NCBI RefSeq assembly: GCF_002995495.1 | Contig: NZ_PVZV01000011.1 | Coordinates: forward strand, 62,001-126,000 | Source of the DNA: Actinocorallia populi | GTDB taxonomy: Bacteria; Actinomycetota; Actinomycetes; Streptosporangiales; Streptosporangiaceae | DNA length: 64,000 bases | Direction: 5' to 3' | In this document: positions 54,284-61,727 of the stretch, piece by piece | How positions within the stretch are numbered: the first letter of the stretch is position 1 | Layout: each line of letters starts with the position of its first letter | Notes under the pieces: model-generated | Seen by the model: only the letters and a program-made list of their open reading frames with translations | What the model was told of the DNA's origin: nothing | Database searches by the model: none | Translations under genes and position numbers: made by a program

Positions 54284-56065
54284 ATGTCCCGTCACATCCT
54301 CACCGCCCCCGCCTGGCCGTACGCGAACGGCCCGCGCCACATCGGGCACGTCTCCGGTTTCGCCCTGCCGTGCGACATGTTCAGCAGGTACCAGCGCATG
54401 CTGGGCAACCAGGTGCTCATGGTCTCGGGGACGGACGAGCACGGGACGCCGATCCAGGTCCAGGCGGACAAGGAGGGCGTGACGGCCCGCGAGCTGGCCG
54501 ACCGCTACAACCGCGTGATCGTCGAGGACCTGCACGGCCTGGGCATGTCCTACGACCTCTTCACCCGGACCTCCACCGAGAACCACTACGCCGTGGTCCA
54601 GGAGATCTTCAAGGGCCTGCACGACAACGGCTACATCTTCCCCACCACCACGATGGGCGCGATCTCACCGTCCACCGGCCGCACCCTGCCCGACCGCTAC
54701 ATCGAGGGCACCTGCCCGATCTGCGGCTACGACGGCGCCCGCGGCGACCAGTGCGACAACTGCGGCAACCAGCTCGACCCGATCGACCTGATCGACCCGG
54801 TCAGCCGGATCAACGGCGAGAAGCCGGAGTTCGTGGAGACCGAGCACTTCATGCTCGACCTGCCGGCCTTCACCGAGGTGCTGGGCCGCTGGCTGCGCGG
54901 CAAGGAGGGCGACTGGCGGCCCAACGTGCTGAAGTTCTCCCTCAACCTGCTGGACGACCTGCAGCCCCGGGCGATCTCCCGCGACCTGGACTGGGGCGTG
55001 CCGATCCCGCTGGACGGCTGGCGCGACCAGCCCAACAAGCGGCTGTACGTCTGGTTCGACGCGGTCGTCGGCTACTTCAGCGCCTCGGTCGAGTGGGCGC
55101 GCCGCTCCGGCGACCCCGAGCGCTGGCGCGAGTGGTGGCAGAATCCCGACGCCCTGGCGTACTACTTCATGGGCAAGGACAACATCGTCTTCCACTCCGA
55201 GATCTGGCCGGCGATGCTGCTGGGCTACAACGGAGAAGGCGCCAAGGGCGGCGAGCCGGGCTCCCTGGGCGCGCTGAAGCTGCCCGACGAGGTGGTCTCC
55301 AGCGAGTTCCTGACCATGGAGGGCAAGAAGTTCTCCTCCTCGCGCCAGGTCGTGATCTACGTCAAGGACTTCCTGGAGCGCTACGACGTCGACGCCCTGC
55401 GGTACTACATCGCGGTGGCGGGCCCGGAGAACCAGGACACCGACTTCACCTGGCAGCAGTTCGTCGACCGCAACAACGGCGAGCTGGTCGCCCAATGGGG
55501 CAACCTGGTCAACCGCAGCGTCTCCATGGCGGCCAAGGAGTACGGCGCCGTGCCCGAGGCCGTGGACCTCACCGAGGCCGACGAGGCGGTGCTGGCCCTG
55601 GCCCGCGACGCCTTCGCGAAGGTCGGCGCGGAGCTGGGCCGCTCCCGGTTCAAGAACGCCATCACCGCGGCGTTCGACGTGGTCCGCGAGGCCAACCGCT
55701 ACCTCGCCGAGCAGGAGCCCTGGAAGATCAAGGACGACCCGGTCCGCAAGGGCACCGTCCTGCACGTGGCGCTGCAGGCGGTCTGGGACGCCAAGACCCT
55801 GCTCACCCCGTTCCTGCCGAACAGCTCCCAGAAGGTGTTCGAGATGCTCGGCGGCGAGGGCGTCTGGTCCGGCATGCCGCGCGTCGAGGAGGTCAGCGAG
55901 GGCGAGCGCGTCTACCCGGTGATCACCGGCGACTACGCCGCGGCCCTGGCCCGCTGGGAGCACAGCCCGCTCGCCGCCGGCACCCCGCTCCAGCGCCCCG
56001 TGCCCCTGTTCCCCAAGCTCGACCAGAGCGTCGTGGAGGAGGAGCTGGCCCGCCTTGGCGCCTGA
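54284..56065 (+). CDS. metG: Methionyl-tRNA synthetase
   Basis: 593 residues. [18 protein letters not shown] (HIGH motif), zinc-knuckle Cys4 ([18 protein letters not shown]), and [12 protein letters not shown] (KMSKS-type motif). It has an anticodon-binding C-terminal domain but no EMAP/tRNA-binding appendix. No ribosome site; TAGGCT ends 6 bases before the ATG, so a leaderless message is plausible. Repeat locus A lies immediately upstream. Confidence 0.97.
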
Positions 56066-56984
56066 CACCTCGCGAACCGGCGACCCGGCCGGGCCCGCCG
56101 AGGCCACCGCTCCCGAGGGCGGGGCCGCCGCTGCTTCCGCCGGAGGCGGCGCGGCCGCGAAGAAGGGCAAGGCCGCCAAGGCGCCCAAGCCCGTGCCGCC
56201 GACTCCGGTGCTGCCGGTGGAGGTCTTCGACAGCCACTGCCATCTGGAGATGCTCGAGATGCCGGTGGCCGAGGCCGTCGAGAGGGCACGGGCGGTCGGG
56301 ATCCGGCGGATCATGACGATCGGCTGCGACGTGCCCTCCTCGGAGTGGGCGGTCAAGGCCGCCTCGGAGCACCCGGACGTCTACGCGGGGGTGGCGATCC
56401 ACCCCAACGACACCAAGGGCGTCACCGGCCGGACCCTGGCCCGGATCGCGGAGCTGGCCCGCGACCCCGGGGTCGTGGCCGTGGGGGAGACGGGCCTGGA
56501 CTACTACCGCGACCACGCCTCGCGCGAGGAGCAGCAGGACTCCTTCCGCGCCCACATCGCCATCGCCAAGGAGACCGGCAAGGCCCTGGTGATCCACGAC
56601 CGCGACGCGCACGACGACGTCCTGCGCCTCCTGGACGAGGAGGGCGCCCCGGAGAAGGTGGTCTTCCACTGCTTCTCGGGGGACGCCGCGATGGCCGGGA
56701 TCTGCGCGGACAAGGGCTACGTGATGAGCTTCGCGGGCAACGTGACGTTCAAGAACGCCCAGCCGCTGCGCGACGCGCTGGCCGTCGCCCCGCTGGACCT
56801 CCTGCTGGTGGAGACCGACGCCCCGTTCATGGCGCCGGTCCCGCACCGGGGCAGGCCGAACGCCTCCCACCTGATCCCGCACACCGTCGAGCTCATGGCC
56901 GAGGTCAAGGGCGTGCCGGTGGCGGAGCTGTGCTCGGCGATCGCCGGAACGGGCGCACGTTTGTTCGGCTTTCCCCCGGGGTAG
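56055..56984 (+). CDS. tatD: TatD-family metal-dependent DNase/hydrolase
   Basis: 309 residues, TTG start overlapping the metG stop by 11 bases. Metal ligands: DSHCHLEM (HxH), [13 protein letters not shown] (Glu), [10 protein letters not shown] and FHCFSGD (His), and VETDAPF (Asp). The first ~55 residues are an Ala/Pro/Lys-rich extension not normal for TatD; a start nearer the [12 protein letters not shown] segment cannot be excluded. Conserved metG-tatD-rpfB synteny. Confidence 0.93.
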
Positions 56985-57085: not shown

Positions 57086-57844
57086 GTGACTCGTAGTGGA
57101 AGGCATGCGGCGGGGCGCCCTCCGAGCAGGGCTCTGCCCCTGGTCGGCGCGGTGCTCCTGGTGGCCCTCGCGGCCGGCGGATGGTCCCTGTTCTCCCACC
57201 CCTCGGAGGCCGAGCAGCTCGCTCTGGCGGGCCAGCAGCACAGCGTGATGCTGCCCTCCCTGCGGACGGTGACCGCCGTCCCGGTGCTGCCCGAGCGCGC
57301 CGAGTCCGCCGCCCGCTCCGCCCACCCCGCCGCCCCCGGATCCGGCTTCGACCACCGCGCCCGGCACCCCGACTTCCCCGTGCCGGCGCCCCACCCCTCG
57401 CTCGGCGTCCCGAAGGCGCCCACCGTCGTGGTCCCCACGCCCAAGGCGCCGGCCCCCGACGCGGGGGTGCCCGAGCTGCTGCCCAAGACCACCGACGGCC
57501 TGCGGGCCCTGACCGACTCCGCCGAGGCCCTCGCCGCCAAGCTGAAGGGCCCCGGCGGCCAGGCCGCGACGCCCCGCCCCGCCGAGGCCGACCCGGCCGG
57601 CCTCAACTGGACGGCCATGGCCCGCTGCACCTCCGACGGCGACCCCAAGGCCGTCACTCCCGAAGGCGCCCACGGCCTCTACCACTTCACCGTGGAAGAG
57701 TGGCGCTCCGTGGGCGGCACGGGCCTGCCCAGCGAGGCCACTCCCCAGGAGCAGACCAAGCGCGCCCAGCTCCTCTACACCCGCGAGGACGGCCGCTGGC
57801 AGTCCCTCTGGCCCGAATGCGGCAGGCACCTCTTCCAGAAGTGA
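57086..57844 (+). CDS. Rpf-like (resuscitation-promoting-factor) protein lacking the catalytic Glu
   Basis: 252 residues. A basic N-terminus and TM anchor/signal (LPLVGAVLLVALAAGGWSL), a Pro-rich linker (~50-170), then an Rpf-like domain (~175-250) with LNWTAMARCTSDGD, GLYHFTVEEWRSVGGTGLP and WPECGRHLF, as in true Rpf domains. The catalytic Glu normally following the first Cys (C-E-S) is Thr182. DUF348 and G5 domains of RpfB are missing. Position equals rpfB in other actinomycetes. TAATGT at 57071-57076 suggests leaderless initiation at GTG 57086 (GTG 57080 possible). Confidence 0.82.
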   Translation: MTRSGRHAAGRPPSRALPLVGAVLLVALAAGGWSLFSHPSEAEQLALAGQQHSVMLPSLRTVTAVPVLPERAESAARSAHPAAPGSGFDHRARHPDFPVPAPHPSLGVPKAPTVVVPTPKAPAPDAGVPELLPKTTDGLRALTDSAEALAAKLKGPGGQAATPRPAEADPAGLNWTAMARCTSDGDPKAVTPEGAHGLYHFTVEEWRSVGGTGLPSEATPQEQTKRAQLLYTREDGRWQSLWPECGRHLFQK

Positions 57845-57956: not shown

Positions 57957-59237
57957 TCAGCCGATCGCCTTCAGATCCACGATCACGTATTCGTCCGCCA
58001 GCCGGGTGCTGTACATCCGTGAGCCTGAGCTCTTCATGGTGCTGTAGGAGACCTCGTCGTCCTTCTGCACCAGCTCGATCGATCCGGAACGCCGTGTCCT
58101 GAGATCGTTCAGAAGGAGCAGGGTCTTCTGGTCCGAGCGGGAGACGCTCGCGACGAACCTGTCGAGGGAGGCGGTCTGGTTCGGCGCCACGGCCGGGTGG
58201 CCGGAGACCCTGAACGTCTCGGTTCCGCTCCTGTCCTTGACCAGGGACCCGGCGAGGCACCAGGTGATCCCGCAGTCCCAGTTCTCCTCACCGGGGGAGA
58301 AGGCCGCGGTCTTCTTCTCCCCGGTCTCCAGGTTGCGCAGATCCCGTCCGTTGATCCGGCCCCGGTCCTGCCGGGAGTCGGAGGCCAGGCCGCCCACCCA
58401 GGGCCACTGCACCAGCATCTCCTCCTCGGTGCCCGGAACCGGCTCGGCGGGGCCCCCCGCGACCGGCGCGGTGTAGACCCCGCCCCCGGAACGCGACCAG
58501 TAGAGCTTTCCGCCGGAGACGGTGAGGTCGCCGATCTGGCCGCCGGGGATCTGCCCGGCGGTCATGGCCCCGCCCTCGAAGGGGGCGGCGGCGGGGGTCC
58601 GTTCGACCGTCACGACGGCGGTGCCGCCCTTCACGGGGACGGACCAGATCGTGCTGGTCAGGTCGGTGGAAGTGGTGTGCCAGAAGATCCTTCCCTCGCC
58701 GACGGTGAATCCGGACGCGAAGATCTGGGTGTTCTTCGGCGTCACCACATCGGTGATCCTGGTGGCCTCGCCCGTCGGCAGGTCGTAGGCGTACAGGACC
58801 GAGGGCTTCTCGAAGCCTCCCCAGGAGTTGACCAGGACCGTCCGCTCGTCGATCAGCGTCTGGGGCATGATCTCGGTACCGTCCCGCAGCCTGGCCGGGA
58901 TCCGGTGCACGGCCTCGGGCCACAGCTTCTCGACCGGAGTGGCCCTGAAAGGGCTCTCGGCCTTCTGGCCGGGCCGGGACAGCGGCTGGGCGCCCGGGCT
59001 CGGCGACTCCAGCAGGACTGCCGACCCGCCGTCGTGCGACCACATGCCGAACGCGGTCCCGGACAGGACGAGCGCCATCGCGGCGGCCGCTCCGGTCGTC
59101 CGGACCCGGCGCCGCCTGCGGTACCGGGTCTCCACCCGCTCGAACAGGTCGGAGGCGGGCGCGGGGGCCTTCGCCGCGTGCCGTTCGAGGGCCCGGTTGA
59201 GGGCGCCTTCCAGGTTCTCCACGGGCCGTTCGGTCAT
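57957..59237 (-). CDS. Membrane-anchored propeller protein, probable anti-sigma partner
   Basis: 426 residues; the start overlaps the sigma gene stop (ATGA, 59234-59237). A cytoplasmic N-terminal ~45 residues, one TM helix (TGAAAAMALVLSGTAFGMW), then an extracytoplasmic beta-propeller-like domain (YAYDLPTGEATRITDV, SGGKLYWSRSGGGVYTAPV). The cytoplasmic tail plus TM and coupling to the sigma gene suggest an anti-sigma factor, but no ZAS motif is visible. Confidence 0.75.
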   Translation of the reverse strand: MTERPVENLEGALNRALERHAAKAPAPASDLFERVETRYRRRRRVRTTGAAAAMALVLSGTAFGMWSHDGGSAVLLESPSPGAQPLSRPGQKAESPFRATPVEKLWPEAVHRIPARLRDGTEIMPQTLIDERTVLVNSWGGFEKPSVLYAYDLPTGEATRITDVVTPKNTQIFASGFTVGEGRIFWHTTSTDLTSTIWSVPVKGGTAVVTVERTPAAAPFEGGAMTAGQIPGGQIGDLTVSGGKLYWSRSGGGVYTAPVAGGPAEPVPGTEEEMLVQWPWVGGLASDSRQDRGRINGRDLRNLETGEKKTAAFSPGEENWDCGITWCLAGSLVKDRSGTETFRVSGHPAVAPNQTASLDRFVASVSRSDQKTLLLLNDLRTRRSGSIELVQKDDEVSYSTMKSSGSRMYSTRLADEYVIVDLKAIG

Positions 59238-59860
59238 CGGGCGTCTCCTTCCACGACGGCCGGACTCCAGGTCCGGCGCAGTTTCTCCAGGGCGCGGGAG
59301 GCCTGGCTGCGGACCGTCCCCCGCGAGATGCCGAGCTGGGCGGCGATCTCCTCGTCGCTGAGCACCTCGTAGTAGCGCAGCACCAGGACCGCGCGCTGCC
59401 GTCGCGGCAACGTCTCCAGCGCCCGCCAGAGCAGGTCGTCGGACGGCGGCGGATCGGTGTAGGAGCCCTCGGGGACCAGGTCCGTGAGGGTCTCCCGGCG
59501 GGTGCGCCGCCAGAGCGAGATGTGCTGGCGGGCCATGGTGGTCCGCACGTAGCCCTCGGGATCGCGCTTGTTGATCACTCGCGGCCAGGCTCCCCGGAGC
59601 TTGATCAGGGCGTCCTGGACGAGATCGGCGGCGTCGTGCGGGTTGCCGCTGAGCACGTATCCGTAACGCAGCAGCGCCTGCGCCCGGGAGGCCACGAATT
59701 CCTCATAGGTGGTGTCGTCCACCGTCGAACCCCCGCCTGGCGGCGTGCCGCCGGCGGCTGAACGCGCGCTGATGCGTGCTGAACGGTCCACCGCCGAACT
59801 CCCGCCTGGCGGCGTGCCGCCGGTGGCCGGTCGCGCGCTGACGCGTGCTGAATGATCCAC
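59234..59860 (-). CDS. SigE-family ECF sigma factor with two in-frame N-terminal 23-residue repeats
   Basis: 208 residues if the GTG at 59860 is used (AAGGAGGAC 7 bases upstream). Residues 1-46 are two copies of a 23-residue unit (DHSARVSAR...[16 protein letters not shown]...GGTPPGG). The ordinary sigma domain starts at [15 protein letters not shown] (GTG 59722), with sigma2 [19 protein letters not shown] and sigma4 [20 protein letters not shown]. The repeats are encoded by the 69-bp DNA repeats of locus B. The start may be at either GTG. Confidence 0.9.
59720..59860 (-). repeat. Two tandem 69-bp repeats at the sigma-factor start (locus B)
   Basis: On the minus strand each unit begins GTGGA at 59860, 59791 and 59722 (exactly 69 bp apart; the third GTGGA begins the normal sigma gene). 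The unit carries CAGCACGC, GCGCGCG and CGGCGGCACGCCGCCAGGCGGG. It is recognisably the same repeat as locus A (54011-54240) in the opposite orientation. Because 69 = 23 codons, the insertion keeps the reading frame open. Confidence 0.85.
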
Positions 59861-59946
59861 GGGTGTCCTCCTTCACGACCGGGACGCCGCGGACGCCCCA
59901 ACTGTTGCAGGGGAGAAGCACCCGATCCCTCTGGGAGAATCGAGGG

Positions 59947-60819
59947 GTGGGGGACGACGAGACCGCAGAGCGGGAGACGGCGCTGCTGGGCGCCGCCGAC
60001 ATCCGGGAGATCGCGGCGGCCCTGGGGGTCCGGCCCACCAAGCAGCTCGGGCAGAACTTCGTGGTGGACGCCAACACGGTGCGCCGGATCGTCCGGACGG
60101 CGGAGCTGACGCCCGAGGACGTGGTGATCGAGGTGGGGCCGGGGCTGGGGTCGCTGACGCTGGCACTGCTGCCGGAGGCGGCGCGGGTCGTGGCGGTCGA
60201 GCTGGACCCGGTGCTGGCGCAGGCGCTGCCCGCGACGGTCCAGGGCCGCGCGCCGGGGCTGGCCTCGCGGCTGGAGGTGGTCCACGGCGACGCCATGCGG
60301 ATCGGGGAGGTCCCGGGTCCGGCGCCGACGGCGCTGGTGGCCAACCTGCCCTACAACGTGGCGGTCCCGGTGGTGCTGCACCTGCTGGAGCTGCTGCCGT
60401 CGCTGCGCAAGGGGCTGGTGATGGTGCAGGCCGAGGTGGGCGACCGCCTGTCGGCCGGGCCCGGCAGCAAGATCTACGGGGTGCCGTCGGTGAAGATGGC
60501 CTGGTACGCCCAGGCGCGCCGGGCCGGGAGCGTGGGGCGCGCGGTGTTCTGGCCGGCGCCGAACGTCGACTCGGCGCTGGTGGCCTTCACCCGCCGGGAG
60601 CCTCCGACCACTTCGGCCTCCCGCGAGGAGGTCTTCGCGGTGGTGGACGCGGCGTTCGCGCAGCGGCGCAAGACGCTGCGGGCGGCGCTGGCGGGCTGGG
60701 CGGGCTCCGCGGCGCTGGCCGAGCGGGTGCTGCGCGCGGCGGACGTCGATCCCACCGCGCGTGGTGAGATGCTCGACGTCAATGCATTTGCCCGTATAGC
60801 CGAACATCGTCTGATCTGA
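59947..60819 (+). CDS. ksgA: 16S rRNA dimethyladenosine transferase
   Basis: 290 residues, GTG at 59947 (GGGAG upstream). [27 protein letters not shown] (SAM loop), [16 protein letters not shown] (motif IV) and [14 protein letters not shown]. It dimethylates A1518/A1519 of 16S rRNA. It precedes ispE by 8 bases, the conserved pair in actinobacteria. Confidence 0.97.
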
Positions 60820-60827
60820 GGTCCAGC

Positions 60828-61727
60828 ATGTCCGTGACCGTCAAGGTCCCCGCCAAGGTCAACCTCCAGCTCGGCGTGGGGCCGCTGCGCGACGACGGCT
60901 ACCACGACCTGGTGAACGTCTTCCACGCGGTCTCGCTGTTCGACGAGGTGACCGCGGCGCACGGGCCGCTCGCGGTGACCGTCGCCGGCGCCTCGATCGA
61001 GGGCGTGCCCGCGGGGCCGGACAACCTCGCCGCCCGCGCGGCCCGGCGGCTCGCCGACCACCTGGGCCGGGAGGCCGACGTCCGCCTCCACATCGACAAG
61101 GCCATCCCCGTGGCGGGCGGCATGGCGGGGGGCAGCGCGGACGCCGCCGCGGCCCTGCTGGCCTGCGCCCGGCTCTGGGAGGCCGACGTCCCCTTCGAGA
61201 CGCTCCTGGACCTGGCCGCCGACGTCGGCAGCGACGTGCCGTTCGCGCTGTTCGGCGGCACCGCCCTCGGGCTGGGCCGGGGCGAGCGGCTGACGGCGCT
61301 GCCGTGCGAGGGGGAGTTCCACTGGGTCTTCGCGCTGGCCGACGGCGGGCTGTCCACCCCGGCGGTCTTCGCCGAGTGCGACCGGCTGCGCGCCGCCTTC
61401 GAGCAGGAGGCCGGCTGGCCGCACGAGTCGCCCGAGCTGCTGGCCGCCCTCACGGCCGGCGACGCCAAGGCGCTGGGCGCAGCCCTGGGCAACGACCTGC
61501 AGCCCGCCGCCCTCAGCCTCCGCCCGTCCCTGGGGCGTACCCTGGCGGCAGGACGGGAGTTCGGCGCGCTCGGCGGGCTGGTCTCCGGTTCCGGCCCGAC
61601 CTGCGCCTTCCTGGCCGCCGACGCCGGGCACGCCGCGGAGCTCGCCGCCGCCCTGGACGAGGCGGACGTGGCCCGCGCGCTGGTCACCGCGACGGGCCCG
61701 GTCCCCGGCGCCCACGTCCTGTCCTGA
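60828..61727 (+). CDS. ispE: 4-diphosphocytidyl-2-C-methyl-D-erythritol kinase
   Basis: 299 residues. GHMP kinase: VPAKVNLQLGVGPLRDDGYH, ATP loop PVAGGMAGGSADAAAALL, and SGSGPTCAFLA. It catalyses the fourth step of the MEP isoprenoid pathway. It directly follows ksgA. Confidence 0.97.
   Translation: MSVTVKVPAKVNLQLGVGPLRDDGYHDLVNVFHAVSLFDEVTAAHGPLAVTVAGASIEGVPAGPDNLAARAARRLADHLGREADVRLHIDKAIPVAGGMAGGSADAAAALLACARLWEADVPFETLLDLAADVGSDVPFALFGGTALGLGRGERLTALPCEGEFHWVFALADGGLSTPAVFAECDRLRAAFEQEAGWPHESPELLAALTAGDAKALGAALGNDLQPAALSLRPSLGRTLAAGREFGALGGLVSGSGPTCAFLAADAGHAAELAAALDEADVARALVTATGPVPGAHVLS

Follow-up and report, generated by a model that had tools for sequence, protein, structure and literature searches.

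A Glu-less Rpf domain at the rpfB locus of Actinocorallia populi and the recurrence of Glu loss among its relatives

Judged by its sequence, the protein encoded at the rpfB locus of Actinocorallia populi belongs to the Rpf family yet lacks the Glu after the first structural Cys, the catalytic residue by which an active Rpf is defined. It was found in a window of 64,000 nucleotides, the whole stretch of DNA analysed (contig NZ_PVZV01000011.1, positions 62,001 to 126,000 of the forward strand), and all coordinates below are counted from the first letter of that window. We infer, with a probability of about 0.55, that the domain is a catalytically dead pseudo-lytic-transglycosylase, kept for binding peptidoglycan, partner hydrolases or both. 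The case bears on how Rpf proteins wake dormant cells, by cutting of peptidoglycan alone or through binding and signalling as well.

The gene and its locus

The original prediction placed the gene in the order metG-tatD-rpf-ksgA-ispE, and Pfam and NCBIfam assignments of the neighbouring genes confirmed this synteny. The features are as follows.

54284 to 56065, + strand: metG, a marker of the rpfB locus (Pfam/NCBIfam)
56055 to 56984, + strand: tatD, a marker of the rpfB locus (Pfam/NCBIfam)
57086 to 57844, + strand: the rpfB-locus gene (252 amino acids), with a basic N-terminal tail and membrane anchor, a Pro/Ala-rich linker and a C-terminal Rpf domain
57593 to 57841, + strand: the Rpf domain as modelled (83 amino acids), lysozyme-like fold (Pfam, AlphaFold2, Foldseek)
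59887 to 60819, + strand: ksgA, a marker of the rpfB locus (Pfam/NCBIfam)
60828 to 61727, + strand: ispE, a marker of the rpfB locus (Pfam/NCBIfam)

The order tatD-rpfB-ksgA-ispE is that of RpfB-subfamily loci, and the tatD/ksgA/ispE setting is the rpfB context of Ravagnani et al. (PMC1084345). The open reading frame begins with GTG at 57086 and ends with TGA at 57842-57844. Its GC content at codon positions 1, 2 and 3 is 0.75, 0.59 and 0.93, a pattern typical of coding genes when the genome is GC-rich. Two genus-mates, G001 and G002, align from the same start, xTRSxRHAAGRPPS, followed by a transmembrane segment. Since these proteins have start, basic tail and hydrophobic segment in common, the window protein is probably membrane-anchored, with an external Rpf domain.

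PF06737 was the sole Pfam match in the protein (E 4.9e-12, residues 174-246), and its score of 46.8 bits against a curated cut-off of 27 assigns the region to the Rpf domain family. The DUF348 repeats and the G5 domain that otherwise characterize the RpfB subfamily were not found in the Pfam scan of the window protein, in agreement with what had been predicted.

Between rpf and ksgA, on the minus strand at 57957-59860, lie genes for an ECF sigma factor of the SigE family and, on a weak NCBIfam match, a possible anti-sigma membrane protein. The same pair is found at the locus in G001 and G002 and beside the rpf of G091, and related genes adjoin rpf in G122. A search with Rfam at the gathering score revealed no riboswitch or other known RNA at the rpf locus.

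Active site, predicted fold and copy number

Four residues of the domain bear on its chemistry.

57626 to 57628, + strand: Cys181, first structural Cys (alignment)
57629 to 57631, + strand: Thr182, codon ACC, at the position of the catalytic Glu (alignments, codons)
57683 to 57685, + strand: His200, codon CAC, at the active-site Gln of the GLYQF motif (alignments, numbering)
57818 to 57820, + strand: Cys245, second structural Cys (alignment)

Thr182 stands directly after Cys181, where an active Rpf has its catalytic Glu, and a phmmer search of the PDB aligned it with that residue in RpfE (4cge) and RpfC (2n5z, 4ow1) of M. tuberculosis. The replacement of Glu by Thr, the retention of both structural Cys and the presence of a GLYHFT core had been read from the sequence beforehand, and all of these held up in the alignments, which for the Glu position included the Rpf sequences of the PDB. 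The Gln of the YQF motif is His200 in the window protein; this Gln is not strictly required, as RpfE has Arg there. As aligned, the domain has lost both the catalytic Glu and the Gln, and the change of both sites would favour inactivity.

The lysozyme-like Rpf fold was predicted by AlphaFold2 with a pLDDT of 95.9 and a pTM of 0.85, compared to a pLDDT of 96.1 for the Glu-bearing orthologue of G002. Since the input was an alignment of relatives, the model shows compatibility with the fold rather than proof of folding. The best PDB matches to the model in Foldseek were RpfC (4ow1), RpfE (4cge) and RpfB (4emn), followed by general lytic transglycosylases. The predicted fold is thus intact, while the chemistry is in doubt.

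When the 8.25 Mb genome, estimated to be 100% complete, was searched for another, intact Rpf with PF06737 and with a clade-specific profile, no second Rpf domain was found. A weak match on contig C8 was rejected as a second copy because it is an SLT_2/SLT lytic transglycosylase. The proposal that the window protein regulates other Rpf enzymes had to be given up for want of a second Rpf domain, and the remainder of the original interpretation, an Rpf fold at the rpfB locus that has lost its Glu and binds without cutting, fits all of the data. Since this is the only Rpf domain of the genome, any partner must belong to another class of hydrolase. The other wall hydrolases present are seven NlpC/P60 domains and an SLT_2 lytic transglycosylase, and these are the candidate partners.

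Recurrence of Glu loss and constraint on the remaining domain

The wider survey sampled 299 genomes of the family that contains Nonomuraea. A PF06737 domain is present in 172 of them and absent from 127. When 200 distinct Rpf-domain sequences from this and other families of the class were read, Glu was absent in 13, all from the Nonomuraea-containing family; three domains that pattern scoring gave as G or S carry CES, and ten scored as '?' carry ESG, so that Glu is kept in these. In all 13 genomes the Glu-less gene is single and of the rpfB type, and it is the only confident Rpf domain. The Glu is replaced by T, V, M, L or Q, distributed as follows.

Window genome: T
Nonomuraea (genus g4), 8 of 28 domain-bearing genomes: V in G005/G211, V in G180/G235, M in G290/G319, L in G124, L in G164
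Genus g31, 2 of 9: Q in G195/G220
Genus g33, 2 of 5: V in G172/G196

The identification of g4 as Nonomuraea comes from the domain of G235, which matches N. wenchangensis NZ_FOHX01000009.1 exactly. Where the flanks of the Glu-less genes could be read, the order is metG-tatD-rpf-(insert)-ksgA, with some stretches stopping short of metG or ksgA. In G235 (L156, Nonomuraea wenchangensis) ksgA lies downstream and neither tatD nor metG occurs upstream in the stretch read, which indicates a rearrangement breakpoint beside the Glu-less rpf.

On a tree of MetG, TatD and KsgA from 50 genomes, made by a quick method with several partial rows, the Glu state changes 10 times, and 6 of these changes are unavoidable given branches whose support is 95% or more. 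A single ancestral loss, which would place all Glu-less rows in one clade, was rejected by the AU test (p 3e-54), as was one clade of the eight Glu-less Nonomuraea (p 3e-9); the groups were named after the data had been seen, and these p-values are indicative. Counts of changes alone give no direction. Since Glu is near-universal elsewhere and its replacements differ between clades, repeated and independent loss appears to be the simple reading. Together with retention of the gene in single copy, such recurrence suggests that the Rpf protein can be kept for something besides wall cutting.

The recurrence also bears on a sequencing, assembly or alignment artefact, which could be suspected because the species is represented by a single genome. 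The conversion of GAG to ACC takes three base changes, so that a sequencing slip is unlikely, the neighbouring Cys anchors the alignment, and twelve other genomes have the same kind of loss, including five sister pairs that share a replacement. We regard an artefact as extremely improbable.

The accessory domains have a distribution of their own. Canonical family members such as L021 have DUF348 repeats, G5 and Rpf, and in G091, which is sister to the window genus, one DUF348 and a G5 are present. Both domains are absent from the window protein, G001 and G002. In the Glu-less proteins of Nonomuraea, g31 and g33 that were scanned, DUF348 was present and G5 was not detected. Since the Glu-bearing G001 and G002 share the absence of DUF348 and G5, it is a genus-level trait that is not tied to the loss of Glu, and these domain architectures indicate that the two losses are separate events.

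Other variants were seen in the same family. A separate Rpf-like group in other genera (L039-L046, L096, L108, L109) keeps ESGG, has no Cys directly before the Glu and ends in YDGC; neither tatD nor ksgA lies beside those of its domains whose flanks were checked. Genus g33 (L038, L165, L166, L163, L164) has a shorter loop behind the Glu position and carries Arg or Gly instead of the YQF Gln, and this holds for its Glu-bearing members too. Among 12 Rpf-less family genomes that were checked, five (L277, L278, L279, L280, L284) have tatD followed directly by ksgA, and rpfB looks cleanly deleted. Intact, Glu-less and absent Rpf states thus coexist in one family, and the many relatives without rpfB indicate that the gene is dispensable there.

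This coexistence could be read as decay in progress, in which Rpf activity is unneeded in the family, relaxed selection first lets the Glu go and deletion of the gene follows, with no function kept. The frequent absence of PF06737, the direct tatD-ksgA junctions, the earlier disappearance of DUF348 and G5 in the window genus and an elevated dN/dS of the window gene (0.6-0.76 to its genus-mates, which are Glu-bearing, with one genome of the window species) would fit. The pattern of constraint argues against it. Pooled over the five sister pairs that share a loss, dN/dS is 0.30 (bootstrap 0.17-0.53; 29 synonymous and 30 non-synonymous changes), well below 1, and 13 Glu-bearing pairs gave 0.22 (0.17-0.27); the Nei-Gojobori method tends to overstate dN/dS in a GC-rich genome. 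None of the 13 Glu-less domains has a stop or a frameshift. Of the columns found invariant (100%) across 35 Glu-bearing domains of the family, L1, W3, A7, C9, G26, Y28, W35, G40, P44, E51, Q52, T53, R55, A56, Q57, L59, W67, C74 and G75 are kept in 13 of 13 Glu-less domains, among them the disulfide Cys, Trp, EQT and RAQ columns. The exceptions are the Glu itself and one substitution at each of two Gly columns. Faster evolution of the window domain was rejected, as it lies at the same protein distance from outgroups as the Glu-bearing genus-mates do. A dN/dS near that of the Glu-bearing pairs and the kept columns indicate that the Glu-less genes are not plain pseudogenes. In the sister lineages these values point to purifying selection after the loss of Glu, on a domain with a degenerate active site and a conserved remainder, and we consider decay unlikely.

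Glu-less domains could also remain enzymes, perhaps slow or of altered specificity, if another acid (Asp186 at C+5, or Asp184 in the window protein) or a different water geometry replaced the Glu. Published Glu mutants can keep activity. In M. luteus, activity is reported to be suppressed by both E54A and E54K (Mukamolova et al., 2006, cited in PMC6534110). In the Rpf of Micrococcus KBS0714, E54A abolished resuscitation, E54K lowered it by 40% and E54Q by 25% (PMC12090717), and in R. erythropolis Rpf-1 activity fell by 11% with E51A and by 86% with Q69K (PMC6534110). These mutants span dead to nearly wild-type, so loss of the Glu need not kill, and the natural Q-types of G195 and G220 might keep some function. 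Groove residues are conserved, and Asp at C+5 is found in 12 of 13 Glu-less and in 21 of 35 Glu-bearing domains of the family (Fisher p 0.04, a test that ignores relatedness). However, replacement by one shared acid was rejected: the enrichment at C+5 is mild, no acid is common to all Glu-less proteins and confined to them, C+5 being Asn in G319 and Asp184 occurring in the window protein only. The window domain has in addition lost the active-site Gln. Retained catalysis therefore seems rather doubtful to us.

A proposed role and comparison with known systems

The binding role that we favour would run as follows. In the window genus an rpfB orthologue would have been reduced to membrane anchor, linker and Rpf domain, with the lysozyme-like fold and the Cys pair retained and the Glu that protonates the glycosidic bond, and in the window protein the Gln of the substrate cleft, gone. 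Such a domain would cut peptidoglycan poorly or not at all. It may be kept because binding to glycan strands, to hydrolase partners such as NlpC/P60 endopeptidases, or to both persists; in mycobacteria an interaction of RpfB with RipA has been reported (PMC6736417). Seated in the membrane, the protein would then serve as a subunit for targeting or regulation, much like the DipM-type inactive LytM regulators.

A broader proposal, which we hold tentatively, is that, besides catalysis, RpfB senses glycans or scaffolds other wall hydrolases, that this second, non-catalytic task suffices for retention of the gene, and that the protein has turned into a pseudoenzyme repeatedly in this family. If so, the Nonomuraea-containing family would be a natural set of separation-of-function variants of RpfB. 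Within a single genus, Nonomuraea for example, Glu-bearing species and their Glu-less sisters offer a direct comparison for roles of RpfB besides cutting. A search of the open-access literature, with most subscription journals outside it, revealed no published natural Rpf that lacks the Glu.

Among known systems, RpfB of M. tuberculosis (Rv1009) resembles the window protein in its tatD-rpfB-ksgA-ispE locus, membrane-anchored N-terminus, C-terminal Rpf domain and two Cys. The window protein differs in that it has no DUF348, no G5 and no catalytic Glu, and His in place of the active-site Gln. The short Rpfs RpfC and RpfE (4ow1, 2n5z, 4cge) are the nearest solved structures by sequence and fold and also lack accessory domains, but both have the Glu and lie at a different locus. 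The inactive LytM regulators DipM, EnvC and NlpD are an analogy in working, in each of which a wall-hydrolase fold persists under selection despite a degenerate active site; the dead hydrolase domain of DipM activates other hydrolases, a lytic transglycosylase and an amidase (PMC10336132). Their M23 peptidase fold is unrelated, and the regulatory role is experimental in their case and only proposed for the window protein. SpsB/YabE of Firmicutes occupies the same genomic position and is an RpfB-like protein that ends in a different C-terminal domain (PMC1084345). There the Rpf domain has been replaced by an unrelated one, whereas in the window protein it has been kept in altered form.
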